51,410 nt of DNA from Coriobacteriia bacterium (GCA_030655755.1 JAUSOQ010000044.1:1-51410), one strand, 5' to 3'. Shown: positions 21,997-40,173, numbered from the stretch's first letter. The notes: generated by a model from the letters alone, not told the origin. Translations and numbers: made by a program.

Positions 21997-22293
21997 ATGC
22001 AGGACGGGGTCATACGCCTCCACATCTGGGTCTCGGGCGTCGTACAGGGGGTATTCTACCGTGCGTCCATGATCGAGCGCGCAAGAGGACTCGCTATCGA
22101 TGGTTGGGTGCGTAATCTCGCTGACGGACGCGTGGAGGCTGTCTTCGAAGGCGACCCGGGGGCAGTAGGGGCGATACTGGCCTGGGCCCACGAGGGCCCT
22201 GCCCATGCTGTCGTCGAATGCGTGGAGACAGCGGCCGAAGCACCTCTCGGCGAACAAGGATTCCACGTCGCTAGAGGTGCTCCGAGATCCTGA
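21997..22293 (+). CDS. acyP: Acylphosphatase
   Basis: A 98-residue protein with both acylphosphatase signatures: the phosphate loop VQGVFYRAS (with catalytic Arg) and GWVRNLADGRVEAVFEG (with catalytic Asn). It hydrolyses acyl phosphates such as acetyl phosphate in the cytoplasm. ATG 21997 follows AGGAGGTCGGTGGC. It is divergent from the histidine kinase gene and its 3' end overlaps the convergent HD-GYP gene by about 23 bases. Confidence 0.93.
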   Translation: MQDGVIRLHIWVSGVVQGVFYRASMIERARGLAIDGWVRNLADGRVEAVFEGDPGAVGAILAWAHEGPAHAVVECVETAAEAPLGEQGFHVARGAPRS

Positions 22294-23593
22294 CTCGTAG
22301 ACTTTCGGGGTCGACCGTCTCCAACACTTCGAGGCCCACATCAGACAGCAGTACGTCTTTCGGCGGCTCCAGTGCAAGTCCCGTCGCGTCGTACATGACC
22401 CGTACGCGAGGCCTGAGCGAATCCCCTGTCATGCCGGAGACGATACCGACCGACTGGTCGGACAAGCGTACGACGCAGCCGACAGGAAAGACGCCAAGCT
22501 GTTTGACGAACAGCCTGGTAAGAGTCTGGTCGAATGTCGTCAATGTATCGCGGAGGAGCTGCATGACCGCCTGATCCGGCGTATGGCCAAGTCCATCGGG
22601 TAGCGGTGTCGTCAAACGGTCGTAGCGGTCAGCGATCGCGACGATGCGACTGTACGGGTGGGTGACGTAGTCGGCCTCGCGTTCGGGGTAACCCGATCCA
22701 TCGCGTCCCATGTGATGTTCGTAAGCGACGAGCATCGGCGTGCGGTCCTGCTCGGGCAGTCGCGAAAGCACTTCAGCCCCGATCTTCGGGTGTAGATAGC
22801 GGGCTTTCTCCGCCTCCACCGGGTCTGTCATGTCGAACGCGACCTTCCCCACATCATGCAGCAGGGCGGAGATGCCCAGTGTCGTCAGGCCTTCCTCGGG
22901 TATCCCGAGTCCTACGCCGAGGACCAGGGCGTAGATCATGGTATTGATCGAGTGGAACAGGTTCGGCTCCGTGTTGCCGGTCATGGTCGCCAGGCCGAGT
23001 ACGGCGGCGCTGTCCTCCATAAGCCTGCCGAGGATGCTTTCGACGATGATGGCCGAATCGCCTACATCGGTGGAGCCCGTCTTCTGGATACGCTGGGTCA
23101 GCGAGCGCATCACGCCTAGCAACCGGTTGTAGAGAGCCCGATCCTGCTGACGCAGACGGTCGCGCTCCTCGGCCTCCTGAGCATCCTCGTCGACGATCGC
23201 GGATACCGTCACGGTGGAGACGCCGCGTTTCTCGAGTTGTTCGGCCACCTCGAGTGACTGGCTTGGTCGCAGACCGAGCACTTCGATGAGCATCTCGGCG
23301 TCGTGAGGGTTGAAGCCTTCGTGCAGGGTAAGGCTCTCGACGCGATGAGCTTCGAGAGTCTCGGCCATCGAATGCAGACCCGGAGCGTCGGTCGGCAGTA
23401 CCTGGCTGCCGTGGTAGAGGCGACCGAGATGGACGTTCAGTGTGAACGGTCCCTCGATGAGACATGTCGCCGTCGCCTCGAGCAGCCCGTCGATGGCTTC
23501 GCTGTACCGGGGGTGCGTCGGCGGGTAGAGGTGCAGTGCCTTGCGTGCCGAGGAGAGTGCTACGACAAGCTCTATAGGCTGGCGCTCGTTCAC
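22271..23593 (-). CDS. HD-GYP protein with N-terminal YPP domain (unit 1)
   Basis: A 440-residue protein. Residues about 8-115 form the N-terminal domain shared by four proteins in this window (ARKALHLYPPTHPRYSEA, then LGRLYHGSQVLP and the acidic ESLTLHEGFNPHD). A coiled-coil stretch follows. The HD-GYP domain (about 190-360) has NLFHSINTMIYAL, SALLHDVGKVAFD and HHMGRDGSGYP, so the metal ligands and GYP motif are intact. It is expected to hydrolyse c-di-GMP. A C-terminal beta region follows (VGCVVRLSDQSVGIV). It is translated after the HEAT-like gene with a four-base overlap. Confidence 0.9.
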   Translation of the reverse strand: MNERQPIELVVALSSARKALHLYPPTHPRYSEAIDGLLEATATCLIEGPFTLNVHLGRLYHGSQVLPTDAPGLHSMAETLEAHRVESLTLHEGFNPHDAEMLIEVLGLRPSQSLEVAEQLEKRGVSTVTVSAIVDEDAQEAEERDRLRQQDRALYNRLLGVMRSLTQRIQKTGSTDVGDSAIIVESILGRLMEDSAAVLGLATMTGNTEPNLFHSINTMIYALVLGVGLGIPEEGLTTLGISALLHDVGKVAFDMTDPVEAEKARYLHPKIGAEVLSRLPEQDRTPMLVAYEHHMGRDGSGYPEREADYVTHPYSRIVAIADRYDRLTTPLPDGLGHTPDQAVMQLLRDTLTTFDQTLTRLFVKQLGVFPVGCVVRLSDQSVGIVSGMTGDSLRPRVRVMYDATGLALEPPKDVLLSDVGLEVLETVDPESLRVRISEHL

Positions 23594-25575
23594 CGGGCAC
23601 CTCCTGTGGTACGACCGTCAAGTGCTTGCTGAGCCAGTGCGGACACCTCGGTGAAGTGACCGCGCTTGATCAATGATTTGCGTGTCGCGAGTCTGGTCAG
23701 CACGTTGGATGCGTGATCGTCGGCACTCCGCATCAATGCGTCGATGATCTCGCGTGTCAGTGCGAAATCCTTACCGTCGGCGTCTATCTCACCGAGAAGG
23801 TCGCTGAGCGCTCCAGTGGCCCCCGGCGTCTTGCTTGCTCCTATGGCCCGGATGGCCGACACTGCGACCTCCGTATTCCCGTCGTGCATCAGCACCCGCA
23901 AGTGGGAGAGTGCGTTGGGAGATCCTGACTTGCTCAGACCCTTGGTGACCTCCCGGCGCGACTGTGCGTCTGCACGGCGGACGAGTGTCTCGAGCGCTTG
24001 TGTGGCGCGTGGCTCGGTCTCGGAGGCGAGACGCTGTGCGATGGGTGCGAGCTGGAACCACTGTGCTTTCGCTGCGAAGGAGACGAGCAGATCTGTCAGG
24101 CGTCGTCCCAGTATCTGTCCTGCCAACTCCAGGCCGTCGTGGTCGCGCAGTGTCAGAGCCTCCTCAAGTAGCGCTGTCTGCGCCTGCTCGCCGCACTTGA
24201 GTACGATGTTGCGTGCGGTATGCACGAGCGCGGCGTCGTCCATCACCGCGTGCAGGAGCGCTCCCATGGCACGCCGGTCGGTCGCGCGCGCCAGTGCGCT
24301 GTGGAGACGGTTTGCCAGCTCGGGCCAGGGAAGGTCGGTGCGAGACTCGCGCGCCACGAGTTCAGAGATGACACGGGTCGCGAGGTCGAGGTCGCGCTGT
24401 TCGAACAGTGTTGGCGCCAGCGAGACAAGCCCGTCCAGTGTCTTGCAGTACAGATCGAAGTCTTCTTGCTGATCAAGCAGGGACAACATGGTCGCGACGC
24501 TACGTGCGCTCACGTGCGAAAGCGAACGTTGCACTTCTGATCGAACTGCGGCGACCTCATCGGGTCGCACTTCCGCGATCTTTGCGACCTTCGCATAATC
24601 AGGAGCCCGCACGAAGAGGGGTTTCTCCGGTTCCTTGGCGGTGCGAACACCCATCATGTGTTCGAGGAAAGTCAGCTCCTTGGCCGAGTGGCCCGCCTGA
24701 GCGAGCATCGGTTCGATCTCGGCCATGATCTCATCAAGTCGTTGGCCGATAGGGAGATTGGTGATCATGCTCGAGACGGAGAGCATGTTTTTGCCGTACA
24801 GGCCACCGACGAGTGATGCGGCGAGGTCGCCGGAGCCGATCTGGCTGAAGACGCCTGCCACCAGATCGTTCAAATCATCGTCACAAGAAGCGGCGATCCC
24901 AAGAATCGCGTCGCGCCCACTGGCGTCCTGTGCGAGGAATGCCGCGGTCAGTGACTCGACAAGGCGGTCGAAGTCATCCGGACCGACCGTTGAGAGCATC
25001 TCACTCAAACCCTCCTCCAGTGCCGAGGGGTCACCCTTGACGACGCTTTGCAGCCAAAGCGCGAGCTTCTCCGGGTCGGTGGCCAGCTGTCGCAGGAACT
25101 CGTCAACGTCACCATCGGGAGCGATGGCTTCGAACTCGATGACCGTGAGACTGACATCAGAGGCTCTGACGCATTCGATACCCGCTGCCGCAAGCGCAGC
25201 GCCGAAGCCGCCCCGTTCGCGCAACGTGTCCGGCGGTTCAAGCACGATGGTGAGCGCCGTGGTCAAGTCTTCCTCGCTGCAGCCGGGGAGGATGTCCAGC
25301 TCTGCGACTCCATGCGCGACAAGCAGATCGGCGAGTTCACTTGAGCCGACCGAAGCGACCGACATCCCACCGAAGGTGAAGCCTTCACGGGCGACCGTCA
25401 ACGGGATCACGGGTTCGACGGCAAGGAGTTCTGCCAGTGCCGAACACGCGGCGGCGGCGCTTTGACGCGGGATCGGACTGGATGCGGGATAGAGGCGGAG
25501 CGTCTTGGTCGTCGTCGTCAGTGCTCGCACGACGGTCTCCACACTGCGCAGCGTGGCCAGATCAGGTGCACTCAA
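23590..25575 (-). CDS. Helical HEAT-like repeat protein with N-terminal YPP domain (unit 1)
   Basis: A 661-residue, apparently soluble protein. Residues about 10-120 carry the shared N-terminal domain (TKTLRLYPASSPIPRQSA, FTFGGMSV, ELDILPGCSEEDL). The rest is alpha-helical with degenerate HEAT-type repeats, clearest near the C-terminus (LSHLRVLMHDGNTEVAVSAI, LTRLATRKSLIKRGHF). Such proteins are usually scaffolds. Start is TTG 25575, preceded by a G-rich GGGGGGGTGGGA. Its stop overlaps the HD-GYP start, so the two proteins probably act together. Confidence 0.8.
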   Translation of the reverse strand: MSAPDLATLRSVETVVRALTTTTKTLRLYPASSPIPRQSAAAACSALAELLAVEPVIPLTVAREGFTFGGMSVASVGSSELADLLVAHGVAELDILPGCSEEDLTTALTIVLEPPDTLRERGGFGAALAAAGIECVRASDVSLTVIEFEAIAPDGDVDEFLRQLATDPEKLALWLQSVVKGDPSALEEGLSEMLSTVGPDDFDRLVESLTAAFLAQDASGRDAILGIAASCDDDLNDLVAGVFSQIGSGDLAASLVGGLYGKNMLSVSSMITNLPIGQRLDEIMAEIEPMLAQAGHSAKELTFLEHMMGVRTAKEPEKPLFVRAPDYAKVAKIAEVRPDEVAAVRSEVQRSLSHVSARSVATMLSLLDQQEDFDLYCKTLDGLVSLAPTLFEQRDLDLATRVISELVARESRTDLPWPELANRLHSALARATDRRAMGALLHAVMDDAALVHTARNIVLKCGEQAQTALLEEALTLRDHDGLELAGQILGRRLTDLLVSFAAKAQWFQLAPIAQRLASETEPRATQALETLVRRADAQSRREVTKGLSKSGSPNALSHLRVLMHDGNTEVAVSAIRAIGASKTPGATGALSDLLGEIDADGKDFALTREIIDALMRSADDHASNVLTRLATRKSLIKRGHFTEVSALAQQALDGRTTGGAR

Positions 25576-25690
25576 TATCCCACCCCCCCGGTTCGGCCAT
25601 GTACAGGTTCTACTCGATTCTGCGGTAACAGCGTGACATCGTCCACACCAGCCATGTGAGAGATGGCGCTGTTACGGTAACCTTATCGGC

Positions 25691-27028
25691 ATGAACTCAT
25701 ATATCGGAGAGATATTACTCATCGCAGTGCTGCTCGTGCTGAACGGCTATTTCGCTGCGGCCGAGATCGCGCTCGTCTCCGCGCGCCGCGCGGCACTCAA
25801 GACAGAAGCGGATGAAGGTTCGGCGCAGGCGAAGAGTGTCCTGCGTCTCACAGAGGATCCATCGCGCTTCCTCGCCGCGATCCAGGTGGGCATCACACTC
25901 GTTGGTTTTGGAGCGTCAGCCACCGCTGCCGTTACGCTCGCTGAGCCGGTGGCTATTGCACTGCGTGGTCTTGGTATACCGTGGGTGACCGACATCGCCG
26001 GCGGACTATCGGTCTTTCTCGTGACGCTGGTGATCGCGTATCTCACGCTCGTGTTCGGTGAGCTCGCGCCAAAACGCCTCGGACTACAGCGTGCCGAACA
26101 CGTGGCAAAGTCCGTCGCCGGTCCCATCGGCTGGCTGGCCACGTTCATGACGCCGGTCATCTGGGTACTCACGAAGTCTACGAACGGTGCCGCACGTATG
26201 CTCGGAGTGAGACCCGGCGCGGTGCGTCCGGGCGTGACCGAGGAGGAGATCAAACTGCTCGTTACCGAGCAGGGCACGCTGCTAGACGAAGAGAAGCGCA
26301 TGATCCACGAGATCTTCGAGCTCGGCGACACCGTCGCTAAGGAGATCATGGTGCCGCGGGTGGACATGGCGATGCTGGAGGACACTGCGACCGCCGGTGA
26401 AGCAATCACCCTTTTCCGTCGTTCCGGCTTCTCGAGGCTGCCGGTCTTCCACGGGGACGCAGACTCCATCGTAGGTATCTTGCTGCTGAAAGACCTCGTC
26501 GGTCCGGCATCTGAAGGTGCGTTGGGTGAACCGGTCACCCGCTTCACCCGCCCCGCGGTCTTCGTGCCCGAGACGAAGCCTATCCTCGCGATCCTCTCGG
26601 ACATGCAGATCGCACGCAACCACATCGCGGTCGTCGTGGATGAGTACGGTGGCACCGAGGGCATCGTCACGATCGAGGATATCGTGGAGGAGGTCATCGG
26701 CGAGATCTCTGACGAGTTCGACAAGGAGCACCGCTACATCACGGTGCTGGGTGCCGATGAATGGATGATCGACGCGCAGCTGTCGGTCGAGGAGGCGCGG
26801 GAACACCTTGGACTGGAGATACCGGAGTCCGAGGAGTACGAGACACTCGCGGGCTGGGTGCTGATGGAGCTCGGACATATTCCCGTCCCCGGCGAGACCG
26901 TCGAACACCCGGACCTCTACGTGACCGTGGAGGTCGTACGCCGTCGTCGCATCGCGCGGTTACGGGTATCAAAGACAAAGGATGCTCACGAAGGGGGACA
27001 TGAGGATGGAACGCAGGCTCTATCGTAG
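25691..27028 (+). CDS. CNNM/CorC-type membrane protein (UPF0053) with CBS pair
   Basis: A 445-residue protein in the usual order for the family. An N-terminal DUF21/CNNM membrane domain (about 1-190; NGYFAAAEIALVSARRAAL and FGELAPKRLGLQ) is followed by two CBS domains (about 215-335; EIMVPRVDMAML and GFSRLPVF, then HIAVVVDEYGGTEGIVTIED) and a C-terminal CorC_HlyC domain. Members take part in Mg2+ or other cation export or homeostasis. It has its own short upstream region, divergent from the HEAT-like gene. Its end overlaps the next gene in another frame. Confidence 0.92.
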   Translation: MNSYIGEILLIAVLLVLNGYFAAAEIALVSARRAALKTEADEGSAQAKSVLRLTEDPSRFLAAIQVGITLVGFGASATAAVTLAEPVAIALRGLGIPWVTDIAGGLSVFLVTLVIAYLTLVFGELAPKRLGLQRAEHVAKSVAGPIGWLATFMTPVIWVLTKSTNGAARMLGVRPGAVRPGVTEEEIKLLVTEQGTLLDEEKRMIHEIFELGDTVAKEIMVPRVDMAMLEDTATAGEAITLFRRSGFSRLPVFHGDADSIVGILLLKDLVGPASEGALGEPVTRFTRPAVFVPETKPILAILSDMQIARNHIAVVVDEYGGTEGIVTIEDIVEEVIGEISDEFDKEHRYITVLGADEWMIDAQLSVEEAREHLGLEIPESEEYETLAGWVLMELGHIPVPGETVEHPDLYVTVEVVRRRRIARLRVSKTKDAHEGGHEDGTQALS

Positions 27029-27458
27029 TCGCCGGGACCGCGTGATCGTCGGCGTGTGCGGTGGCATCGCGGAACAGATGCAGGTCGATCCTACACTCGT
27101 ACGGGTTGCCGCAGTCGTGCTTGCGCTCATCACACACGGTGGCCTTGTCATCGCATATGTGGTGATGGCATTCGTCGTACCCGAGGAGCCGCTTTCCATC
27201 GACACCAACGGGGCTGCGATCGCCCCGCGGCTGGCGAACACCTTTGAAGAGGAGAAGACCATGGCCGAGGACGCTGCGCCCGAGTCACATCGAGCGGCGC
27301 ACCGCCGTGGGGGAGTCGGTTTCGGGGTCGTTCTGATCGTCGTGGGACTTGCCTTTCTTGCGCACCAGTTCATCCCCGACTTCGATATCTGGCTCTATTG
27401 GCCGGTGGTCGTGATCTTTCTCGGCATCGTATCCGTGATGAGAGGGCTGAGGGGCTGA
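27006..27458 (+). CDS. PspC-domain membrane protein with LiaF-type C-terminus
   Basis: About 150 residues. The N-terminal PspC domain (RLYRSRRDRVIVGVCGGIAE, followed by a membrane helix and AFVVPEEP) is joined by a charged linker to a second membrane section (GVVLIVVGLAFLAHQF, WPVVVIFLGIVSVMRG) like the DUF5668/LiaI-type helices of envelope-stress proteins. ATG 27006 has AAGGGGG eight bases upstream; ATG 27000 is also possible. It overlaps the CNNM gene by about 20 bases and the next gene by one. Confidence 0.87.
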   Translation: MERRLYRSRRDRVIVGVCGGIAEQMQVDPTLVRVAAVVLALITHGGLVIAYVVMAFVVPEEPLSIDTNGAAIAPRLANTFEEEKTMAEDAAPESHRAAHRRGGVGFGVVLIVVGLAFLAHQFIPDFDIWLYWPVVVIFLGIVSVMRGLRG

Positions 27459-28393
27459 TGGACCTCAAACGAGCAGCAGAAGGGCTGACCGTCATCGCGG
27501 TGGGGTCTGTCCTTCTGGCGAACACACTGGGCTATCTGCCGTGGTCGGTATGGTGGAACGTTCTGTCGCTGTGGCCACTGCTTATCATCGCCGCCGGTAT
27601 CGACATCATCGGTCGCGGTACGGACAATACCTGGCTCCGTGTCTTGGCGAGCCTACTCGTGGTCGGCGGCCTGCTATATGGGGCTTTCCTCATGACGCCG
27701 AGCGGTCGCTGGTTCCCCTTCGTCACGTGGGGCACGTCGATGGATTCGACTCCATTCGATGAACGCGAGTCTCACGATGCTGACGTGAAGAGCGGCATCG
27801 CCGAGATAGGCGGCGGCGTCGGTGAGTTCACGCTGGGCGCGGGCAGCGATCTTGTCTCTGCAGCCGGTGAGACGCCATTTGACGGACCCGCGTTCAGCAC
27901 CGCGGTGATCGGGGATGAGGCCGAAGTACAGGTCTCGCTCGGCAAAGGAACGACGGTCTGGCCGAGCGGCACCACGGCGCGCCTTGATGTGCTGCTCGAC
28001 CGCAGTGTCGTGTGGGACCTGAGGATCGACGCAGGCGTATCGAGGACGGAAGCCGATCTGAGCGACCTGAGGCTTTCGGCTCTCACGGTCGACGCGGGCG
28101 TCTCCGACACATCGGTCATGCTTGGTGAGATATCGTCGACCGCTGATCCCAAAACGGTCCCGGTCCACGTGGACGGCGGCGTCTCTTCGATCGAGCTGCG
28201 GATTCCCCGGGGTACGCAAGCGCGCGTGCTCGTGAAGGGCGGCCTCAGCGCCATCAATGTAGACCCCGGGATCAGGCGTCTGTCCGGCGGTAGCGACAAG
28301 CACTACGAGACCGATGGTTTTTACGACGGCGCTGCGTACTACGACATCGTGATCGATGCAGGCGTCGGCTCGATCAGCATCGACCTCTACTAG
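27458..28393 (+). CDS. LiaF-like protein: membrane hairpin plus beta-rich toast-rack domain
   Basis: A 311-residue protein. The first 100 residues contain paired membrane helices (VIAVGSVLLANTLGYLPW, WPLLIIAAGIDII, then LVVGGLLYGAFL). From about residue 115 on, the protein is beta-rich with repeating short motifs (IAEIGGGVGEFTLGAG, DLRIDAGVSRTEADL, VHVDGGVSSIELRIP, IDAGVGSISIDLY), as in LiaF or DUF4097/toast-rack domains. ATG 27458 overlaps the PspC stop. It probably forms an envelope-stress module with the two flanking PspC proteins. No LiaRS-type kinase is adjacent. Confidence 0.83.
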   Translation: MDLKRAAEGLTVIAVGSVLLANTLGYLPWSVWWNVLSLWPLLIIAAGIDIIGRGTDNTWLRVLASLLVVGGLLYGAFLMTPSGRWFPFVTWGTSMDSTPFDERESHDADVKSGIAEIGGGVGEFTLGAGSDLVSAAGETPFDGPAFSTAVIGDEAEVQVSLGKGTTVWPSGTTARLDVLLDRSVVWDLRIDAGVSRTEADLSDLRLSALTVDAGVSDTSVMLGEISSTADPKTVPVHVDGGVSSIELRIPRGTQARVLVKGGLSAINVDPGIRRLSGGSDKHYETDGFYDGAAYYDIVIDAGVGSISIDLY

Positions 28394-28410
28394 GTCGCCG
28401 AGGAGGCACC

Positions 28411-28878
28411 GTGAGCAACGAATACCCACAGCAAGGGTCGGGTCAGCCGGACCCGTTCAAGACAGGTGACGGCAAGCCGGCGCTGATCATCGGCATCGCG
28501 CTGATCATCGTCGGTGTCTGGCTCGCAGTGTGGCGTCTCGGCCTCGTACCGGACTTCTTCTGGACCGGCTGGAACCTGGTGCGCAACGCCGGGTGGGGCG
28601 TCGCGATCATCCTCATCGGCGTCGTTATCGTCATGTGGTCGGGCAAGAGTGCCGTGCCGCGCATGCCTGCACGGGGTACGCGCCTGTATCGCTCGCGCAC
28701 CGAGAAGTGGATAGGCGGCGTCTTAGGCGGCCTCGGACAGTACTTCGGTATCGATCCGACACTGCTCCGCTTCGCTTTCATCGCCTTGATGCTGGCGAAC
28801 GTGGGCGGTCTCATCGTCGCCTACATCATCATGCTGGTGATCGTTCCCGAAGAGCCCAAGGCGGCGGCGGGTCAGTGA
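28411..28878 (+). CDS. PspC-domain membrane protein, reversed domain order
   Basis: A 155-residue protein with two N-terminal membrane segments (about 22-40 and 60-75; LIIGIALIIVGVWLAVW and VAIILIGVVIVMW). A C-terminal PspC domain follows (RLYRSRTEKWIGGVLGGLGQ and AYIIMLVIVPEEP). In the PspC gene two positions upstream the PspC domain comes first, so the pair are mirror-image arrangements. Start GTG 28411 follows AGGAGGCACC. Its stop overlaps the GTG of the next gene. Confidence 0.87.
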   Translation: MSNEYPQQGSGQPDPFKTGDGKPALIIGIALIIVGVWLAVWRLGLVPDFFWTGWNLVRNAGWGVAIILIGVVIVMWSGKSAVPRMPARGTRLYRSRTEKWIGGVLGGLGQYFGIDPTLLRFAFIALMLANVGGLIVAYIIMLVIVPEEPKAAAGQ

Positions 28879-29795
28879 CCCCGCTCGAGTCCGCTCCGGC
28901 CACCTGCCCGGGCGATATCGTAGACGCGCACGTGCACCTGTTCTCGGTGCCATTGTTCGCCGAGTACGTTGCAGCGTATCCCGACGCGAACCCCCGTTTC
29001 AAGCGGGCGCTTGAAGAGCGCAAGTTCGGGCGACGCAACGAGACGCTGCCCGATCTGGACGCGACCGCGATGGCCGAGTGGTACACGCGTCGCATCCATG
29101 ATGCCGGTGTCGCGAAGGCGCTTGTGGTGAGCGTGATCGAGGACTCGCAGTACACGCGGGAGTTCATCGCCGCAGCCCGTGGTCACGTGCATGCGCTCAC
29201 CTATGTGGATCCGCGCGGAAAGCATGCTCCGGAGCTACTTGAACGCGAGATGGCCGCCGGCTTCAAGGGCGTCAAGCTGCTACCGGTCAACCGCAGCTAC
29301 CGTCTTTCAGACCCGGAGTGTCGGCCCTTCTTCAAGAAGGCGGCCGAGCTGGGTGCACCGATGATCGTGCACTATGGCGTGACCGTCGATCCGACGGGTG
29401 ACATGCGCTATGCAGACCCGACCGACCTCTCGCCGGTCGCGAGGGACTTCCCGGAGGTCACCTTCGTCATCGCACACTTCGGCGCGGGTTACCTGCACGA
29501 GGCGCTGCGAGTGTGTTACCAGTGCAAGAACGTGTGCCTTGATTCCTCGGGCACCAACAACTGGATGGATTTCGATCCGCACAGCTACACACTTGCGGAC
29601 GTCTTCTTGCGTTCCGTCACCGCTCTCGGGCCCGAGCGGGTGCTGTTCGGCACCGACTCCGGCACCACCGCGCAGTATCGTTCCTGGATCAAACATCAGC
29701 AGCTGAGGACGCTCGAAGAGATCGGGCTGTCCGAACAAGACCGCGATCTGATCGCACGCGGCAACGCGGTGCGCATCTTCGGTCTGGACGGGTAG
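28875..29795 (+). CDS. Amidohydrolase-2 family metal-dependent hydrolase
   Basis: A 306-residue TIM-barrel hydrolase. The strand-1 metal motif is VDAHVHLF (H-x-H), followed by the lysine-bearing GFKGVKLLPVNRSYRL, the histidine in GAPMIVHYG, a further histidine in TFVIAHFGAGY, and the aspartate in VLFGTDSGTT. These match the amidohydrolase-2 superfamily (decarboxylases and lactonases included). The substrate is unknown. Start GTG 28875 overlaps the PspC stop (GTGA). The methyltransferase gene follows six bases later, so the two may share a pathway. Confidence 0.87.
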   Translation: MTPLESAPATCPGDIVDAHVHLFSVPLFAEYVAAYPDANPRFKRALEERKFGRRNETLPDLDATAMAEWYTRRIHDAGVAKALVVSVIEDSQYTREFIAAARGHVHALTYVDPRGKHAPELLEREMAAGFKGVKLLPVNRSYRLSDPECRPFFKKAAELGAPMIVHYGVTVDPTGDMRYADPTDLSPVARDFPEVTFVIAHFGAGYLHEALRVCYQCKNVCLDSSGTNNWMDFDPHSYTLADVFLRSVTALGPERVLFGTDSGTTAQYRSWIKHQQLRTLEEIGLSEQDRDLIARGNAVRIFGLDG

Positions 29796-29801
29796 GTAGC
29801 C

Positions 29802-30629
29802 ATGTTCGACGCGATGCAGAACCAGGAACGCGAGTACGACCAACTCGTGGACTGGGAGCGTCGTCTGGAGCGTGAGGGGCCCTTCTTCCGCAGATTGTTC
29901 GCGGATGCAGGTGTATGCTCTATCGCCGATGTGGGTGCCGGCAGCGCACGCCATGCGATCATGTTCCGCTCCTGGGGTCTGGAAGTGACCGCGATCGACC
30001 CGAGTGAGGACATGCTCGCGTTGGCGCGGGAGAACGCCGAACGCATGGGTAGCGACCTACGGATCGTCGAGGGTGGTTTTGGCGAGGTCATGCGTATCGT
30101 GGGGTGCCATGTGGACGCGATCACCTGTACGGGCAATGCACTCCCGCACGTGCGCTCACGTGCCGGTCTGCGCGCGGCGCTGGGCGACTTCGCGACCGCG
30201 CTACGCCCCGGCGGAGTGCTGGTGCTCCACTATCTCAACCATGCGCGGCTCATCCGTCAACGTGTGCGTACGATGAGCCCGGTCTTTCGGGAAACGCCCG
30301 ATGGCGACAAGTTCTTCCTGCGGCTCTTGGACTACACCCCGGAGTGCGACGGCATCCTGTTCGACTTCGTGACGCTTGTACGCGACCCGGCGGTCCGAGA
30401 TGGCGAACACACCATCGAAAGCTGGCCCGCGACGCTTGGAACCGATGCGCTCGGAGGGTGGAGCCTGAAGACGCGCCGTTCGCTCCACTTCGCGATGCCG
30501 TACGACATGATAACGACCGAGTTGGAGCATGCGGGTTTCAATCAGATCGTCATCTACGGGGATCACGAGAACAGGCTTCTTGATCCGGACACTGATGAGT
30601 CGATGGTACTCGTCGCCCGACGCGTCTAG
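29802..30629 (+). CDS. SAM-dependent class I methyltransferase
   Basis: A 275-residue protein with a Rossmann methyltransferase core. Motif I is IADVGAGSARHAIMF (glycine-rich SAM loop), followed by the acidic residue in VTAIDPSEDMLALARENAE, ITCTGNALPHV, and the post-motif LRPGGVLVLHYLNH. The C-terminal half is beta-rich and shows no substrate signature. It follows the amidohydrolase by six bases and converges on maf, with a four-base overlap of the stops. Confidence 0.87.
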   Translation: MFDAMQNQEREYDQLVDWERRLEREGPFFRRLFADAGVCSIADVGAGSARHAIMFRSWGLEVTAIDPSEDMLALARENAERMGSDLRIVEGGFGEVMRIVGCHVDAITCTGNALPHVRSRAGLRAALGDFATALRPGGVLVLHYLNHARLIRQRVRTMSPVFRETPDGDKFFLRLLDYTPECDGILFDFVTLVRDPAVRDGEHTIESWPATLGTDALGGWSLKTRRSLHFAMPYDMITTELEHAGFNQIVIYGDHENRLLDPDTDESMVLVARRV

Positions 30630-31303
30630 CTCTTGCCGAGGAGCTTTCTGCCGAGCAGGCAGCCCACGCACCGGTCGGCATCACAGGCTTCGAGTGGTGA
30701 GTGTAGTCCGTCGGGCACGCCCTGAAGCTGCCCCGCGGCGAGCGCCAGGTAGATGTGGCACAGGGGCAGACCGGCCACGTTGCGGTAGCACTCGGTCAAC
30801 TCGACGGTCGCCAGGTGACTCTCGATATTGTACGCACCAGCGCAGCCGAGCAACTCGCCTTTCGCTGCCCACACAGCCAGGTCTGTTTCGGACAGCTCGT
30901 GCATGCGTACCCGCGTCGTGACGGAGAACGTGTGTGGCTCTGTCTCGCCATGGCTCAGAAGTGCGATACCCGTGATGACTTCGTGTTCGCGTCCCGAGAG
31001 CGAGCGCAGCATGCGATATGCGTCGTTAAGGTCAGCCGGCTTGCCCAGCACGGTGTCGTCATGCACGACGATCGTGTCGCATGCGAGCACGAGTCGTCCG
31101 TCTGCGGCAATCGGTGCCGCAGCAACGGCCTTCTCGGCAGCGATCGACGCCGCCAGTGCTGTGGGGTCGACCGAAAGCGGTGTGTCGAGGTCTTCCGGCG
31201 TGTTGACCGACGTCACATCGACAGGGATCCCGAGCCATGTGATCAAGCGGCGTCGTCGTGGGGACGCCGAGGCGAGCAGGAGCGGGTGTAGGGGTTCGTT
31301 CAT
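30626..31303 (-). CDS. maf: Maf-family nucleotide pyrophosphatase with Cys-containing tail
   Basis: A 225-residue protein. Maf signatures are LLLASASPRRRRLITWLGI, the catalytic VLACDTIVVHDDTVLGKP, and the ELLGCAGAYNIES region. Maf proteins hydrolyse non-canonical or modified NTPs and guard nucleotide pools. ATG 31303 gives the normal start; the frame extends a little further upstream. The protein runs about 25 residues past the usual end and finishes with CDADRCVGCLLGRK, a C-x4-C-x2-C cluster that could bind metal and is not typical as far as I know. Confidence 0.88.
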   Translation of the reverse strand: MNEPLHPLLLASASPRRRRLITWLGIPVDVTSVNTPEDLDTPLSVDPTALAASIAAEKAVAAAPIAADGRLVLACDTIVVHDDTVLGKPADLNDAYRMLRSLSGREHEVITGIALLSHGETEPHTFSVTTRVRMHELSETDLAVWAAKGELLGCAGAYNIESHLATVELTECYRNVAGLPLCHIYLALAAGQLQGVPDGLHSPLEACDADRCVGCLLGRKLLGKS

Positions 31304-31383
31304 GCGCGGATGATAGCATCTGAGCGCGGAGAGCGGCATAATCAAGAGGGTTTTCGTCCTCGCTGCATCGGGGGGAACATCAC

Positions 31384-33552
31384 GTGACTGATGTCGATAG
31401 GGAGAAGTGTGCGCCCGAGCCGGTCGAACGGTTCGTCAAGCAGCTGCTGGTCACACACAAGGCCGTGAGGCTCTACCCGCCGGCCAGTGCGATACCTCGC
31501 GAGAACGCGCGTGATGCGCTCATGCTGCTTCGCCATCTCCTGCGCGAACGCGCGGACATCCGCTTCTGCGTGCTCAAAGAGGGCCTGATCGTCGATGGCA
31601 AGCCTGTGCTTCCCGATAAGCCTGCGTTCACAGAGTTCGCTCGCGAGTTCTACGCCCGCAATATCGCCGAGTTCCGTTTCCACACGGGTGCGAGCGAGCG
31701 CGAGCTCGTGGAGTTCCTCGCTGTCGTCCAGGAGTCGCCCGACGCTATCACGGCTGCGGGTGGCTTCGAGGCGCGCATGTGGGAGCGCCAGATCGACAGC
31801 ATAACCGTCAAGGACGTGAGCACCAAGATAGTCGATGCCGCTCCGTTCGATGATGCCGAAGAGACTCTCGTCGCTGGCGAGCCGTGGCCGCCCTCGCCTG
31901 AGCGGATCGAAGCGATCCTCGCGTTCGGTCGTCTGGCTCGACCGCGCGACCAGCGCCTTCTCGTGCGTTTCACGCAGAGCCCTCGGTTGGTGGGGCGCTA
32001 TCTGGCGGAGGCGGCGCACGGTCGCGGCGCCGAAGTCTCGATGGGGCGCCTCGCGACGATCGTGGGGGATCTCGCCCGTGTGGCGCGCGATGAGCTCACC
32101 GAGGAGCAACCGGCGCTATTCCGCTCGATCGGCGAGGCGATCATGGGTCTGGAAGAGGATACGCGCTTCCGCCTGCTGTCAGAGCATCTGCTCGAGGAGG
32201 CTCGCGTCGATGACGCCGTTGCGGGGGTGTTGCGCCAGCTCGATCTCGGCGAGGTGTGTCGCGCGCTCGTTACCGCGCTAAGCGAGGACCCGGTCTCGCA
32301 GGAGGGACTCGCGCGGGCGATACGCAATCTCGCCGCTATCAGCCTTGCGGGCAGGGAGGACGTTTTAGACGCGGCGAGGAATGCGATGGGGGAGCAGGGG
32401 GCGTCACCATCGGTCATCTCGGCGGTACTCGAAGGAGCGGCTCCGACGAAGTTGCAGACCGCGGAACAGGAAGAGAGCGGCGATGCGCTTGCGAGCGTGC
32501 TGCGCCTCGTGGACCTCGCGCCGCAGCAACGGGATGTGGGGGTCGGTGATGACGAGGTCGCGGCGCTCAAGGCAGAGGTGATGCGCGGCGTGAGCGACGG
32601 CGACATCCTCTCCACTCTCATCTCGATCGCGTCACTCGAACGGCGGCCGGGCGTGTTCGGATCGCTACTTGCGCTCGTCGAAGACAATCTCTCGCTGCTG
32701 GCCGAATGGGGAGAGTTCGAGGCGGCGACGCATGTCGCAGTCGTCCTCACCGCCTTGGAGTCGGACGAGACGCTCGACCCGGAGCAACGGGCGCGCGTCC
32801 GGGCCGCGATCGGTATCCTGGCAAGCGCTCGGACCATGCAGCTTGTAAGTCAGGCGATCCGCATCTACGAGCCTTCTACACCCGAGCATGAGGCGAGTAG
32901 ACGCTTCCTCGACGCCCTCGGCGAGCATGCGATACAGCCACTTCTCGAGATCTTGGCCGATGAACCCGACATGGCGGGCCGCAAGGCGCTCGTCGACCTG
33001 CTATCCGGTCTCGCGGGTGACTACATCGAACGCCTCGGGTCGCATGTCACTGATCCTCGCTGGTACTTCGTTCGCAATGTCGTGAACATACTCGCTGCTA
33101 CGCATGCCGCTTCTGTCCTGCCCTACCTCAACCGCACGCTGCGTCACGGCGATGCACGGGTGCGCAGGGAGACGATCCGTGCACTCTTAGGGATCCGGGA
33201 CAGGATGGCCGAGGAGATGTTGGTCGCCGCTCTCGGCGACGACGATGAGCAGAACGTGCGCCTTGCGGCTCGTTACCTCGGCACATCGGGTGTCCGCGGT
33301 GCGGTTTGCGCGCTCTCCGAGGTGGCGCGAGGCGACGGGCGGGGCAACCGTGACATCGGTCCGCGGGTCGAGGCGATCGAAGCGCTTGGACGGATCGGAG
33401 ATACGGCCGCGAAGCCGGTGCTCGAGAACCTCGCACGACAGCGCGCGCTCATGCGCTCGGGTCGGTTGCGCGAAGTGCGCACCGCCGCCACGTCCGCGCT
33501 GACGGCGCTTGCTGTGTCGCAGGCTGCCGGGGCGACGGGGGAGGACTCGTAA
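31384..33552 (+). CDS. HEAT-repeat protein with N-terminal YPP domain (unit 2)
   Basis: A 722-residue soluble protein. The shared N-terminal domain spans about 12-125 (HKAVRLYPPASAIPRENA, LKEGLIVDGKPVLP, EFRFHTGASERELVEF). A long helical middle follows, then clear HEAT repeats in the last 200 residues (LPYLNRTLRHGDARVRRETI, AVCALSEVARG, AIEALGRIGDTAAKPVLENL). The extreme end (LARQRALMRSGRLREV) matches the end of the unit 1 protein (LATRKSLIKRGHFTEV). GTG 31384 follows CGGGGGGAAC. The stop overlaps the HD-GYP start by one base (TAATG). Confidence 0.85.
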   Translation: MTDVDREKCAPEPVERFVKQLLVTHKAVRLYPPASAIPRENARDALMLLRHLLRERADIRFCVLKEGLIVDGKPVLPDKPAFTEFAREFYARNIAEFRFHTGASERELVEFLAVVQESPDAITAAGGFEARMWERQIDSITVKDVSTKIVDAAPFDDAEETLVAGEPWPPSPERIEAILAFGRLARPRDQRLLVRFTQSPRLVGRYLAEAAHGRGAEVSMGRLATIVGDLARVARDELTEEQPALFRSIGEAIMGLEEDTRFRLLSEHLLEEARVDDAVAGVLRQLDLGEVCRALVTALSEDPVSQEGLARAIRNLAAISLAGREDVLDAARNAMGEQGASPSVISAVLEGAAPTKLQTAEQEESGDALASVLRLVDLAPQQRDVGVGDDEVAALKAEVMRGVSDGDILSTLISIASLERRPGVFGSLLALVEDNLSLLAEWGEFEAATHVAVVLTALESDETLDPEQRARVRAAIGILASARTMQLVSQAIRIYEPSTPEHEASRRFLDALGEHAIQPLLEILADEPDMAGRKALVDLLSGLAGDYIERLGSHVTDPRWYFVRNVVNILAATHAASVLPYLNRTLRHGDARVRRETIRALLGIRDRMAEEMLVAALGDDDEQNVRLAARYLGTSGVRGAVCALSEVARGDGRGNRDIGPRVEAIEALGRIGDTAAKPVLENLARQRALMRSGRLREVRTAATSALTALAVSQAAGATGEDS

Positions 33553-35036
33553 TGACCGACGATCGCGGGCATGAAGATATCCATGAGGCCGCAGGCGCCT
33601 CTGCAGCGATGCCCGGTATCGAACGTATCACCTCTGAGATGGCGCCCAGTGGCGCCACTCGGCAGTTCACGACGAAGCAGATCAAGCGTGCGCGTGATCT
33701 ACTGGCGCGCTTGTATGCGCTGCGGCGTACGATCCGCTTCTACCCGCCGGAACATCCGGCGACGGCTCAGGCCGTCGAGGAGCTGTTCCACGTGATCGAC
33801 CAGTATCACGCCGAAGGTGTGGACGTACCCATCACGTTCTTCGATGACGAGCTGCTTCTTGGTGAACAGCTCCTGACCGAGGACAGCGTGTTGTTCGACC
33901 AACTCATCCGCGATATGACCGCCATCGGCATAGGCACGCTGCGTTTCAAGCGAGGACTCAGTAAAGATGAGCTTGTCCGCTTCGCGGTGGTGCTTGGCAG
34001 CGATCCCGAGAGCGTGGAGCAACGCGGCGGCATCGTCGGACTCCTGGATGCCGCAGCCTTAGAGCATGTGGAAGTGAGTGCGGTCACCGTTCTGCGAGAG
34101 CGACTATCCTCTGAGGATTCGCACAAGGTAGCCAGAGTCGCGTACGGCGATGCGATCGATCTGCTGCGCGAGCTCGATCAGCTTGTGCGCTCGAACGAGT
34201 CACTGAACGTCCCACGCGTGAAAGCCAGCGTGCGAAGTCTCGTCGACAACGTGCTCGCGAACCGGTATGCGATGCTTGAGCTGTCGGGGCTCAAGAACTA
34301 CGACGAGTACACCTTCTATCATTCCGTGAACGTCGCCATACTCTCGCTCGCGCTCGCCTCGGCGTTGACCAAGGAATACAGGTTCCTCTCGATGCTCTGT
34401 GTCGGTGCGCTGCTGCACGACATCGGGAAGATGACCATCGCAGCAGACATCCTCAACAAGCCGGGTCCACTCACCTCTGACGAGTGGGCGATGGTGCGGC
34501 AACATCCGGTCGTGGGCGCCGAGCACGCTGCGCTTACGGCCGGCCTTGACAAGGCCGCGCTCGTCGTCATCTTCGAGCATCACATGCGCTACGACCTTAC
34601 GGGTTATCCGCAGCAGATGCCGCCCCGGCCGCAGCACCTGGCGAGCCGCATCGTGGCGGTCGCGGACGCCTTTGACGCCATGACATCGAAACGGACGTAC
34701 AGTTGCGCGCGCATGCAGCCCGAGGCGATCGAGGTCCTCGTGAAAAACGCGGGCACCGCGCTTGATCCTACACTCGTCCGACTCTTCGTCGGCCTCATGG
34801 GTGCGTATCCTCCGCGCTCGATAGTGCAGCTCTCCTCCGGGGAGACCGCGATCGTCGTGAGCCCCAGCCCTCGCGATCCGGTCCGCCCCGTGGTCCGCAT
34901 CATCGCCGACGCTTCGGGAGGCATGATCGATCCCATCGATATCGACCTCTCCGAACCCGTTGCCGCAGCCGGCCGAGAGGTGCGTGCCTGTCTGGATCCG
35001 AGTGGCGTGAACGTGGATGTCGCCGACTTCTTGTAA
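33552..35036 (+). CDS. HD-GYP protein with N-terminal YPP domain (unit 2)
   Basis: A 494-residue protein. After a variable leader, residues about 45-165 hold the shared domain (LRRTIRFYPPEHPATAQA, FDDELLLGEQLL, TLRFKRGLSKDEL). The HD-GYP domain follows (about 240-400) with TFYHSVNVAILSL, GALLHDIGKMTIA and HHMRYDLTGYP. The metal-binding His and Asp residues are kept, but the D-G-x-G-Y-P core reads D-L-T-G-Y-P. A beta-rich C-terminus like unit 1 ends the protein (SIVQLSSGETAIVV). Probably a c-di-GMP phosphodiesterase coupled to the HEAT protein before it. Confidence 0.9.
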   Translation: MTDDRGHEDIHEAAGASAAMPGIERITSEMAPSGATRQFTTKQIKRARDLLARLYALRRTIRFYPPEHPATAQAVEELFHVIDQYHAEGVDVPITFFDDELLLGEQLLTEDSVLFDQLIRDMTAIGIGTLRFKRGLSKDELVRFAVVLGSDPESVEQRGGIVGLLDAAALEHVEVSAVTVLRERLSSEDSHKVARVAYGDAIDLLRELDQLVRSNESLNVPRVKASVRSLVDNVLANRYAMLELSGLKNYDEYTFYHSVNVAILSLALASALTKEYRFLSMLCVGALLHDIGKMTIAADILNKPGPLTSDEWAMVRQHPVVGAEHAALTAGLDKAALVVIFEHHMRYDLTGYPQQMPPRPQHLASRIVAVADAFDAMTSKRTYSCARMQPEAIEVLVKNAGTALDPTLVRLFVGLMGAYPPRSIVQLSSGETAIVVSPSPRDPVRPVVRIIADASGGMIDPIDIDLSEPVAAAGREVRACLDPSGVNVDVADFL

Positions 35037-35102: not shown

Positions 35103-37853
35103 ATGGTCGACCGCACTCCGCGTAACCCCCGGGTTCTGACGATCGTCATCGCCATGCTTTTCGTGTTGTTTGCGATCTCGGGCGGCGTTGCGACGTTTTA
35201 CACGGATCTTCTCTGGTTCGAGGACCTCGGCCAACAGGGGGTCTTCTGGACGACGCTACTCTCGCAATGGGGTGTCGGCCTCGCATTCGGCTTGATCTTC
35301 TTCGTGATCATGTACGTGAACCTTCGCATCGCACGGGCGATGGCGCCACGGGCGGTGCTCAGCAGCACCGATGAGGTGGGTTTTCGTTACGAGATGGCCA
35401 TCCAACAGATCCGCGATGTGATCGAGCAGTTCTTCGGCTGGGTCCTGTTGGGCGCCAGCGCGATCACCGCGATCATGTCCGGTGCGGCTATGTCGGGCAG
35501 ATGGGCCGACTTCCAGCTGTGGCTGAATCAGGTCCCCTTCGGGATGACCGATCCACAGTTCGGGAAGGATCTCGCCTTCTACTTCTTCACGATCCCTGCC
35601 TATCGAGCGGTTGCCGACTGGTTGACCAGCGCCCTACTGCTCACCTTGGTGCTGACGGCGGTCGTGCACGTGCTGACAGGGGCGATACGGCCGTGGGCGC
35701 GCCTCAAGGGCTTCGACCCGCATGTGAAGGCGCATCTGTCGGTGCTCGCCGGACTCATCGTGGTCGTGCGGGCATTCATCTACTGGCTCGACATCTACGA
35801 CCTGAACTTCTCGCCGCGGGGTCAGGTCCTCGGCGCGTCATTCACAGACGTGCATGCACAGCTGCCGGCGCTGCAGATCCTCATCGTGATCGCGCTGCTT
35901 TCGGGCATCGCACTCATCGCCAACATACGCTTCCGGGGGTGGAGGCTTCCCGCCATCGCCTTCGGTGTCTGGGTTGCCGCTTCTATCGTGATCGGCGGAG
36001 TCTACCCGGCGCTCGTACAGCAGTTCCGTGTCGCCCCCAACGAGGTGGCCGCCGAGGCTCCCTATATCGAGCGCAACATCAAGATGACCAGGGCGGCGTT
36101 CGGCCTGGACGAGATCGAAGTGCGCGCATTCCCTGCCGAGGAAAGCCTGGTGGCGAGCGATATCGCAGCGAATGCTGACACAATCGACAACGTGCGCTTG
36201 TGGGACCCGGCCATCGTCGCGCAGAGCTACCAGCAGCTGCAGGGCATCAGACCCTACTACGAGTTCGACGACGTGGACATCGATCGTTACCAGATCGACG
36301 GGGCGAGTCGGCAGGTGCTCGTGTCAGTACGCGAGATGAACGTCGGCCAGCTCGCGGAACAGGCGCAGACCTGGGTCAACCAGCATCTCGTCTACACGCA
36401 CGGCTATGGTGTGGTCGTGAGTCCGGTGAACAAGGTGACCGGCCAGGGCCTGCCGGACTTCATCGTCAAAGACATCCCGCCGAGCGGGTCCGGTACGCTC
36501 GAAGTGACTCAGCCCGGCATCTACTTCGGCGAGCAGACCAACAACTACGTCATCGCGGCGACCGACCTCAAAGAGTTCGACTACCCGATGGGCGATCAGA
36601 ACGCGACCACCAGCTACGACGGCGCGAGTGGCGTTGCGATGGGTGGCCTGGTGACGCGCGTGGCGTTCGCGCTGCGCTTCTCGGCGCCACAGATGCTCTT
36701 CAGCTCCTACATCACGCCGGACAGCAAGGCGCTCTTCCGGCGCTCGCTCACCGAGCGTCTCGGCGCGCTGGCTCCATGGCTTGCGCTGGACGGCGACCCA
36801 TACCCGACGATCATCGATGGCCGGGTCATCTGGATCGTGGACGGTTACACGACTTCTTCGCGCTTCCCCTACTCGCAGCCCGTCTACGGTGATCTCAACT
36901 ACATGCGCAACAGCGTGAAGGTCACGGTGGACGCGTATGACGGAACCACCACGCTTTACGCGTTTGATGAGAGCGATCCGCTGCTCACGACCTGGAGGGC
37001 GGTCTTCCCGGATCTTGTGAAGCCGGGCTCAAAGATGCCCGAAGCGGTGCGAGCGCATCTGCGCTACCCGGAGGATCTCTTCCGCGTGCAGGCGGAGGTG
37101 TATAAGACCTACCACATGCAGGACCCGCAGGTGTTCTACAACAAAGAGGACCAGTGGGCGCTGCCGGGAGCGACCGCCGATGGGACGGGTACGGCTATGG
37201 ACCCGTTCTACGTGCTGATGCAGTTGCCGGACGAGTCCACCGAGGACTTCATGATGATGATGCCGTTCACTCCTCGGAACAAAGACAACATGATCGGCTG
37301 GATGGCGGCGAAGTCGAATCCGGGCGACTACGGGCGGCGCGTGGTCTACACCTTCCCGAAGCAAAAGCTCGTGCTTGGACCGGAACAGGTGAGCGCGCGC
37401 GTCAATCAGGACCCGGTCATCTCTCAGCAGCTGACGCTGTGGAACCAGCGGGGGAGCGGGGTGCTCTTCGGAAACCAGCTCGTCATCCCCATCGACACGT
37501 CGATCGTCTACATCCAACCGCTCTATCTGCAGGCCGAGAAGACCGCGATGCCTCAGCTCACACGCGTGATCGTGGCCTATGGAGACAAGGTGGCCATGGA
37601 GGTCGATCTCACGAGTGCCCTCACGGCGGTCTTCGGGAACGAGACCGTTGTGTCGGACGACGGGACGACCGGGGGCGCGACGCCGCCTGCGATAGGTGAT
37701 GACGCCGGGCTTGCACAGGAGCTCTACATGAAGGCCATCGGCGCCCAGAAGTCCGGTGACTGGGCGGCGTACGGCAGGTATATCAAGCAGCTTGGCGAGG
37801 TACTCGACAGGCTCGCGGGAGTGGTCTCGGAGCCTGCGACGACGACTCCGTAA
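35103..37853 (+). CDS. UPF0182 family large membrane protein
   Basis: A 916-residue protein. The first 310 residues contain about seven membrane helices, with TDLLWFEDLGQQGVFWTTLL typical of UPF0182/COG1615. A large extracytoplasmic domain follows, with VAPNEVAAEAPYIERNIKMTRAAFGLD and later YRVQ/YPEDLF-type motifs (LRYPEDLFRVQAEVYKTYH). Members are widespread in actinobacteria and cyanobacteria; their function is unknown. ATG 35103 follows AGGGAGGAACACCC. A hairpin lies 24 bases after the stop. Confidence 0.92.
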   Translation: MVDRTPRNPRVLTIVIAMLFVLFAISGGVATFYTDLLWFEDLGQQGVFWTTLLSQWGVGLAFGLIFFVIMYVNLRIARAMAPRAVLSSTDEVGFRYEMAIQQIRDVIEQFFGWVLLGASAITAIMSGAAMSGRWADFQLWLNQVPFGMTDPQFGKDLAFYFFTIPAYRAVADWLTSALLLTLVLTAVVHVLTGAIRPWARLKGFDPHVKAHLSVLAGLIVVVRAFIYWLDIYDLNFSPRGQVLGASFTDVHAQLPALQILIVIALLSGIALIANIRFRGWRLPAIAFGVWVAASIVIGGVYPALVQQFRVAPNEVAAEAPYIERNIKMTRAAFGLDEIEVRAFPAEESLVASDIAANADTIDNVRLWDPAIVAQSYQQLQGIRPYYEFDDVDIDRYQIDGASRQVLVSVREMNVGQLAEQAQTWVNQHLVYTHGYGVVVSPVNKVTGQGLPDFIVKDIPPSGSGTLEVTQPGIYFGEQTNNYVIAATDLKEFDYPMGDQNATTSYDGASGVAMGGLVTRVAFALRFSAPQMLFSSYITPDSKALFRRSLTERLGALAPWLALDGDPYPTIIDGRVIWIVDGYTTSSRFPYSQPVYGDLNYMRNSVKVTVDAYDGTTTLYAFDESDPLLTTWRAVFPDLVKPGSKMPEAVRAHLRYPEDLFRVQAEVYKTYHMQDPQVFYNKEDQWALPGATADGTGTAMDPFYVLMQLPDESTEDFMMMMPFTPRNKDNMIGWMAAKSNPGDYGRRVVYTFPKQKLVLGPEQVSARVNQDPVISQQLTLWNQRGSGVLFGNQLVIPIDTSIVYIQPLYLQAEKTAMPQLTRVIVAYGDKVAMEVDLTSALTAVFGNETVVSDDGTTGGATPPAIGDDAGLAQELYMKAIGAQKSGDWAAYGRYIKQLGEVLDRLAGVVSEPATTTP

Positions 37854-39559: not shown

Positions 39560-40048
39560 ATGCACGTTCACAGTGTCACGGTCTGCGAGGACCGTATCGA
39601 TGTCGTCGTGAGGGTCGACGATGACGAACGCATGCGTACCGCTGGAGATGACGCAGCCGTGCGCCGCGCGCTGGAGCTGTTGCCGGGCCTGAAACAGCAC
39701 ATGTGCGACAACGCGCAAGGCATCACGTTCGCCGAGGAGATCGCAGACACCGAAGTGCCACATCTGTTCGAGCATGTGGTGATCGAGCTGATGACCCGCG
39801 CGGGTTCGCCGCGGGGGCTCAAAGGCGAGACACAGTGGGACTTCAACCGAGATGGACACGGCACCTTCAGGGTCTCGTTCGAGTACGACGACGACCTTGT
39901 CTGTCTGGGGGCGATCAAGACCGCCGATCGCGTGATGGTACACATCCTGGAAGACACGGAGCCGCCCGATGTGGAGGTAGAGACCGCGCGCTTGCGGGAT
40001 CTAAGACTGCGTGTCCCGCAGGTGGAGGGCGTACCCACACGCATGTAG
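39560..40048 (+). CDS. Hypothetical protein, resembles the N-terminal domain of cyanophycin synthetase
   Basis: A 162-residue soluble protein. The segment with TEVPHLFEHVVIELMTRAG followed by GETQWDFN resembles the N-terminal region of cyanophycin synthetases, where an H-x4-H/E-L-Q pattern precedes a G-x-T. No ATP-grasp or Mur-ligase domain follows, so it would be a free-standing version of that domain. ATG 39560 follows GGGGGGGAC. No function is assigned. It is the last apparent core gene before the restriction-modification island. Confidence 0.6.
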   Translation: MHVHSVTVCEDRIDVVVRVDDDERMRTAGDDAAVRRALELLPGLKQHMCDNAQGITFAEEIADTEVPHLFEHVVIELMTRAGSPRGLKGETQWDFNRDGHGTFRVSFEYDDDLVCLGAIKTADRVMVHILEDTEPPDVEVETARLRDLRLRVPQVEGVPTRM

Positions 40049-40173
40049 CGGGCGAGCGTCGTGTTGACCGTTCGCGTGCTCCTTTCCATGGTCTTCAACG
40101 TTGCCGTCCACACGGGTGTCACCCTCACCTGGTATCCTATTCTTACCATCACCGAGAACGCTGGGGGGCGCGC

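Follow-up and report, generated by a model that had tools for sequence, protein, structure and literature searches.

The window analysed here is a 51,410-nucleotide stretch of DNA from a Coriobacteriia bacterium (GCA_030655755.1 JAUSOQ010000044.1:1-51410), and it carries two gene pairs, A and B, in divergent orientation, with A on the - strand and B on the + strand. As the first-pass annotation had said, in both pairs a HEAT-type gene lies upstream of an HD-GYP-type gene on its own strand and overlaps it. Pair A consists of a HEAT-type gene at 23590-25575 (661 aa; ORF call and Pfam HEAT_2, 1.7e-5) and an HD-GYP-type gene at 22271-23593 (440 aa; Pfam HD_5, 1.4e-13), with an overlap of 4 nt (23590-23593). 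Pair B consists of a HEAT-type gene at 31384-33552 (722 aa; Pfam HEAT_2, 4.6e-11) and an HD-GYP-type gene at 33552-35036 (494 aa; Pfam HD_5, 1.5e-18), and here the overlap is 1 nt, as the HD-GYP gene begins on the final base of the HEAT gene (33552). Tandem HEAT repeats are above the Pfam cut-off for the 31384 gene and 2 bits below it for the 23590 gene, the product of which is laid out as an N-terminal domain, a helical middle and C-terminal HEAT repeats. The HEAT genes of the two pairs are 25% identical across about 700 residues and the HD genes 28% identical across about 460 residues, and we therefore treat pairs A and B as copies of each other.

Pfam assigns HD/HD_5 and HEAT_2 only in the C-terminal parts of the four proteins, and for their N-termini neither Pfam nor NCBIfam gave anything credible. 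All four N-termini are nevertheless homologous, as had been proposed from inspection: Smith-Waterman z values are 7.3-34 over the six comparisons, and none of the 300 shuffles made for each comparison reached any real score. BLASTP also joins the two types of protein, with E values of 3e-9 for the 31384 and 33552 genes and 3e-8 for the 23590 and 33552 genes. We refer to this shared region as the N domain. It is the same region in all four proteins but is about 130 residues long, and not about 100 as first estimated, because the 'GGF...L...I..V.V..VS' segment also belongs to it. With profile A3 it is located in pair A at 25150-25551 in the HEAT protein (- strand; E 2.6e-24) and at 23168-23584 in the HD-GYP protein (- strand; E 2.6e-26), and in pair B at 31414-31845 in the HEAT protein (+ strand; E 6.8e-38) and at 33678-34103 in the HD-GYP protein (+ strand; E 1.1e-40, and also in the AF2 model). 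In this last protein it begins about 42 residues from the start of the ORF.

Profiles of the N domain were built from 47 and 90 members. When Pfam-A was searched with 47 N domains and NCBIfam with 90, no family was matched by more than one member, and the earlier description of the domain as unnamed stands, the four regions being similar to one another and having no Pfam or NCBIfam model. A search of the PDB by sequence with the profile found no credible relative, the sole match below 0.01 being Octarellin V.1, at 20 bits and scattered over its repeats. A second, partial N match in mid-protein was considered for some Deltaproteobacterial HEAT proteins and was rejected, as the larger profile gives it only E 0.01-0.09.

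Structure prediction for the N domain of the 33552 protein, suggested in the first-pass annotation, gave a confident AlphaFold2 model from an alignment of 90 rows (33678-34103; pLDDT 90.1, pTM 0.82). The model has two long helices linked by a Tyr-Pro loop, a beta hairpin, a helix, a strand, three helices and a strand, an order given in the feature table as a-a-b-b-a-b-a-a-b. Foldseek against the PDB gave a best E of 0.14, the best rows being the GAF fold of PelD (probability 0.13, TM 0.20); against the viral models of BFVD there was nothing under E 0.65, and with VIA the best Z among PDB candidates was 3.7. As modelled, the N domain is without a close solved counterpart among the PDB and viral-model candidates compared, and its fold is possibly new. 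Conservation was scored on 87 HD-type and 87 HEAT-type N domains and shows a near-invariant tyrosine (92% and 99% respectively), with an Arg/Lys five residues ahead of it; the remaining conserved positions are mostly hydrophobic. This pattern is better suited to a surface for contact than to a pocket for a ligand, and is proof of neither.

Searching with the profile gave hits strongly enriched in HEAT and HD-GYP architectures, and the pairing seen in the window is conserved across phyla. Among the loci read there are 111 genes encoding an N domain with HD-GYP, and 91 of these are immediately preceded, on their own strand, by an N-HEAT gene, the commonest spacing being a 4-nt overlap (29 cases). 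For 15 of the other 20 genes the neighbour is cut off at the end of the locus sequence or contig (in one of these, L090, a partial HEAT gene is visible); in L044 the HEAT gene is broken into two ORFs, and in L149 there is a HEAT neighbour in which the N domain is undetectable. The clear exceptions with no partner number three (L190, L192 and L228). Among 71 proteins flanking the named loci no family is common to more than four, and we therefore take the pair itself to be the unit. TatC, GLUCM-like_C and UPF0182 neighbours appear to be lineage-local. In some Actinomycetota it is common to find HEAT-only N proteins that have no HD-GYP gene beside them, so the N domain does not need an adjoining HD-GYP partner.

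The domain was found in all 41 genomes searched from the order to which the window belongs, and in 29 of 198 sampled whole genomes of its phylum. Elsewhere, again in sampled whole genomes, it is present in 53 of 118 Desulfobacterota (the phylum of L049, a Deltaproteobacterium), in 40 of 78 from the phylum of L083 (a Myxococcales record) and in 46 of 61 from that of L045 (Nitrospirae). Further named records with pairs are from Planctomycetota, Bdellovibrionales and Krumholzibacteriota. Its presence in 41 of 41 genomes of the order is unlike the pattern of mobile defence loci, and bears on the suggestion that the pairs might be an anti-phage system of HD nuclease and HEAT protein, which PADLOC might suggest through weak matches to HD models of Cas3/Cas10 and to one HEAT-ARM model. 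These matches (E 3e-4 and 3e-7) cover only generic HD or HEAT parts, and the GYP loop and the metal set of HD-GYP proteins are present; we have rejected a defence role as highly improbable.

Any tight operon would lead one to expect co-inheritance of the partners. The N domains of HD type and HEAT type form two old groups that can be split with 94% accuracy, and the tree includes a clade with 77 HD tips and no HEAT tips (support 0.98). The HD and HEAT trees mirror one another, with a mirror-tree r of 0.86. When partners were swapped within genomes, in a set of ten that each contain two or three pairs, none of 2000 swaps gave a correlation as high as the observed r of 0.908. On these comparisons cognate pairs have been duplicated as units, and such matching of partners is compatible with their direct binding, of which it is no proof.

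Using the N domain alone as query in one phylum (the set with 53 of 118 genomes positive) took away the bias that comes with HD-GYP proteins as the starting point, and found the domain on other c-di-GMP proteins. There are proteins of about 1200-1414 aa with the order GGDEF-AAA_16-N-HEAT (L204, L205 and L209-L212), and in two of these the N domain is present as a tandem; Pfam finds AAA_16 and HEAT in the four of them that were scanned (L204, L209, L211 and L212). GGDEF proteins with a STAND-type AAA_16 ATPase are the known plan to which these correspond, their GGDEF being N-terminal, and what they add to that plan is one or two N domains and mostly HEAT as well; the N-HEAT unit is thus tied to messenger synthesis. 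N-HEAT-cNMP_binding-PilZ proteins form another type (L206-L208), and a third is of N proteins of about 740 aa with a divergent C-terminal GGDEF, recognised by Pfam in L220 (E 2.7e-6) and by alignment in its relatives L214, L216, L219, L227 and L233. The remaining N proteins read from this search are HEAT-only. The tree distances of N domains from GGDEF, PilZ and solo proteins are too long for these to be placed with the HD type or the HEAT type.

Apart from the AAA_16 and cNMP domains of the proteins just described, every enzymatic or receptor domain recognised in the N proteins read belongs to the c-di-GMP set. As the domain is found in GGDEF, PilZ and HD-GYP proteins, its enzymatic or receptor partners are nearly always c-di-GMP domains; a link of this kind is absent from the HEAT-only proteins. 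The presence of N-HEAT and GGDEF or PilZ on one chain argues for physical association, and since in these cases they share a polypeptide it is a reasonable inference that HEAT and HD-GYP proteins also associate in the split pairs. The same fusions bear on the suggestion that we have only an old operon, in which the N domain serves as a general-purpose cap for dimerisation or folding and partner matching is a matter of co-inheritance. Overlap of the genes would by itself yield a mirror-tree correlation, and HD-GYP proteins are described as dimerising through their helical stalk (PMC13090378), but a cap leaves unexplained both the fusion of N-HEAT to GGDEF and PilZ in unlinked genomes and the tandem N domains within one protein, and we think it quite unlikely that there is nothing more than this.

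The N domain might also recognise a third partner, or a small ligand, common to both types of protein, with HEAT and HD-GYP proteins co-recruited or co-regulated and not touching each other. A domain that is present on HEAT-only, GGDEF and PilZ proteins could well report one common cue. There is however no conserved polar signature of a pocket, only mainly hydrophobic positions with one Tyr and one Arg/Lys, and for a common ligand the tight cognate pairing and near-invariable adjacency would be superfluous, so that we regard a shared ligand as rather unlikely.

With regard to the HD-GYP proteins themselves, residue roles were taken from PmGH and applied through an alignment of HD relatives. 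In PmGH the metal ligands are H189, H221, D222, H250, H276, H277 and D305, with D183 and K225 catalytic; alanine at D183 or H221 abolishes activity and alanine at R314 or K317 does not (PMC4159591). The core of the pair B protein (residues 250-408; 34299-34775, + strand; located by Pfam HD_5, the residue table and the structural match to Bd1817) has, in order, the motifs YHS, HDIGK, H, EHHMRYDLTGYP, D..D and R. All of the PmGH-type metal ligands and the equivalents of D183 and K225 are present (DEYTFYHS, HDIGK, RQHP, EHHM and VADAFD), as are the GYP loop and the R314 equivalent, and because these are kept the protein is probably an active c-di-GMP phosphodiesterase, as the first-pass annotation had it. 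A tyrosine at the E185 position is as in the Y/F subfamily described for HD-GYP proteins (PMC4159591).

The pair B protein is like the PmGH type in its HD..GK, H, HH, GYP loop and D..D positions. It differs at the E and DG positions of the HHExxDGxGYP consensus, where proteins of the window type have HH[M/L/A]xxD[L/G]xGYP, and the K317 position is not conserved in the window type. PmGH-type proteins have GAF or REC domains, where the window type has the N domain and a HEAT partner that looks obligate. The AF2 model of the full-length 33552 protein (pLDDT 86.9) has the N domain, then a long helical stalk (34110-34260, + strand; helices 146-173 and 179-195) and then the HD core. The closest solved structure to the stalk and core is the unconventional HD-GYP protein Bd1817 of Bdellovibrio (VIA Z 26.2, against 19.0 to PmGH), with 223 residues aligned at an rmsd of 2.7 and the N domain outside the match; Bd1817 is without the GYP tyrosine and without phosphodiesterase activity (PMC4159591).

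For the pair A protein, with its core at 22520-22933 (- strand; residues 221-358, Pfam HD_5), the label of c-di-GMP phosphodiesterase was overstated. The seven metal ligands are kept, but there is a T at the D183 position and the equivalents of R314 and K317, the base-binding residues of PmGH, are also absent, TTPLPDGLG containing no R or K; other members of its subfamily also lack D183 and the R/K pair. Given the loss of D183, for which the alanine mutant of PmGH is inactive, and of R314/K317, for which the mutants are active, the protein is probably impaired or acts differently, and it is doubtful that it should be called a phosphodiesterase.

Many of the relatives searched have a third pair in which the HD motif is changed to YD (L104-L111). 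In L104-L108 and L111 a metal ligand is lost, with YDLGK in place of HDxGK, and nucleotide-binding residues (GYP and RPFR) remain. The third pair is present in a genome of the same genus, and a search for it in the genome of the window did not find it. The HD-GYP protein of this pair is probably a c-di-GMP receptor, as H221A kills the activity of PmGH and there is experimental support for the degenerate HD-GYP of DvhD as a c-di-GMP receptor that signals through a helical stalk (PMC13090378). DvhD is thus a metal-site-deficient precedent and a likely analogue, but it is a membrane protein, carries dCache and PAS domains and has lost residues different from those of the YD pair, and the excerpt of PMC13090378 reports for it no N domain or HEAT partner.

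The nucleotide concerned needs some discussion, as the HD proteins may act on another, such as 3',3'-cGAMP or some linear product, in which case the module would not be one for c-di-GMP. Among PDB sequences the 33552 protein is matched best by V-cGAP3, an HD-GYP protein specific for 3',3'-cGAMP, and many of the relatives are from Deltaproteobacteria, in which the messenger could be 3',3'-cGAMP instead of c-di-GMP. But the match is almost as good to PmGH and PA4781, which were both deposited as c-di-GMP enzymes, the genome of the window has 14 GGDEF matches (one of them within the window), and PilZ fusions exist, although a PilZ search of that genome gave no match. We consider a different nucleotide for the module unlikely.

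Our preferred interpretation, to which we give a probability of a little over one half, is that the N domain is an undescribed adaptor joining HEAT scaffolds to c-di-GMP proteins, and that the products of a pair assemble by contact between their N domains. Homology of the N domains, their lack of a known family, the conserved pairing, the co-inheritance of cognate partners and the fusion or linkage to GGDEF, PilZ and HD-GYP are matters of observation; the contact between N domains, the direction of signalling and the enzymatic state of each HD-GYP protein are what we infer. The genes of each pair would encode a HEAT scaffold and its cognate HD-GYP protein, with a separate subtype of N domain on each, and the two would most likely assemble through these domains. 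The HEAT array would take in an input or anchor the complex, and a ligand of the HEAT surface would tune the HD-GYP protein, with the helical stalk carrying the effect to the HD core. The outcome would differ between pairs, the HD-GYP protein of pair B being an active phosphodiesterase, that of pair A impaired or altered, and that of the YD pair of relatives a receptor. The proposal of a signalling module, in which scaffold and phosphodiesterase recognise each other or a common ligand through the same domain, is supported in part, by the conserved unit, the matching of partners after duplication and the fusion of N-HEAT to GGDEF and PilZ.

More broadly, and here we would put the chances slightly short of even, this unnamed domain, possibly with a new fold, may define a branch of c-di-GMP signalling that extends over several phyla. 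In this branch HEAT scaffolds would physically assemble, by homotypic N contacts, with proteins that make the messenger (GGDEF), degrade it (HD-GYP) or bind it (PilZ and degenerate HD-GYP), with several insulated pairs in parallel in one cell. HD-GYP, HEAT, GGDEF and PilZ are already known; the N domain and the HEAT-linked organisation are absent from Pfam, NCBIfam and the open-licence papers searched. A search of the open-licence literature for HD-GYP with a HEAT repeat or domain found no relevant paper, and the word 'HEAT' does not occur in a 2022 census of c-di-GMP input domains (PMC8846402).

The N domain probably marks an unrecognised way to organise c-di-GMP signalling. How signals are kept specific amid the many GGDEF, HD-GYP and PilZ proteins of one cell is a long-standing question, and many of the input domains of these proteins are still unrecognised. 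If our interpretation is correct, a domain that pairs an HD-GYP protein with its own HEAT scaffold, and elsewhere connects scaffolds of that type with GGDEF and PilZ proteins, would offer a physical explanation, open to direct test, for c-di-GMP modules that are local and insulated. It would do so for large groups in which c-di-GMP signalling is little studied, namely Nitrospirota, Desulfobacterota, Myxococcota and some Actinomycetota. Many proteins that can so far be recognised by nothing more than their HEAT repeats or HD domain would also acquire a name.

The N domain, the unnamed region of about 130 residues with which four proteins of the window begin, is also found on GGDEF and PilZ proteins among the loci recovered from Desulfobacterota with the domain alone. 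Two proteins of 1414 aa each (loci L204 and L205) have the architecture GGDEF-(AAA_16/STAND)-N-N-HEAT, with the N domain twice in tandem and a GGDEF motif that reads AGDEF or GADEF. At L206-L208 the order is N-HEAT-cNMP_binding-PilZ in proteins of up to 1680 aa, the longest of which is repetitive in its middle part. There is also a family of about 740 aa (L214, L216, L219, L220, L227 and L233) in which the N domain is followed by a helical middle with no Pfam name and, at the C-terminus, by a divergent GGDEF domain whose signature motif is no longer present. The window itself includes a DUF4118-GGDEF gene of diguanylate cyclase type (4750-5790, forward strand).

Many relatives have a third HEAT/HD-GYP pair (L104-L111; for example L107:2625-5917), in which the HD motif is replaced by YD while GYP and RPFR are retained. 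This pair is present in a genome of the same genus (837 bits), and a search of the window's own genome did not find it.

The last 70 or so residues of the HD-GYP proteins form a conserved beta-rich extension after the HD-GYP core, which has no Pfam name. In the pair B protein it lies at 34820-35030, with strands predicted by the model at 383-440.

A UPF0182 membrane protein gene (35103-37853, forward) starts 66 bp past pair B, and at three other loci (L039, L040 and L043) pair B is likewise followed by an ORF of similar size, confirmed as Pfam UPF0182 in one; further on is a Type ISP-like restriction-modification protein with N6_Mtase and Type_ISP_C (39703-43587, forward). Between pairs A and B a CNNM/CorC transporter gene (25691-27028) precedes two PspC-domain genes flanking a LiaF-like gene (26982-28878, forward), and these three are possibly a cell-envelope stress cluster.
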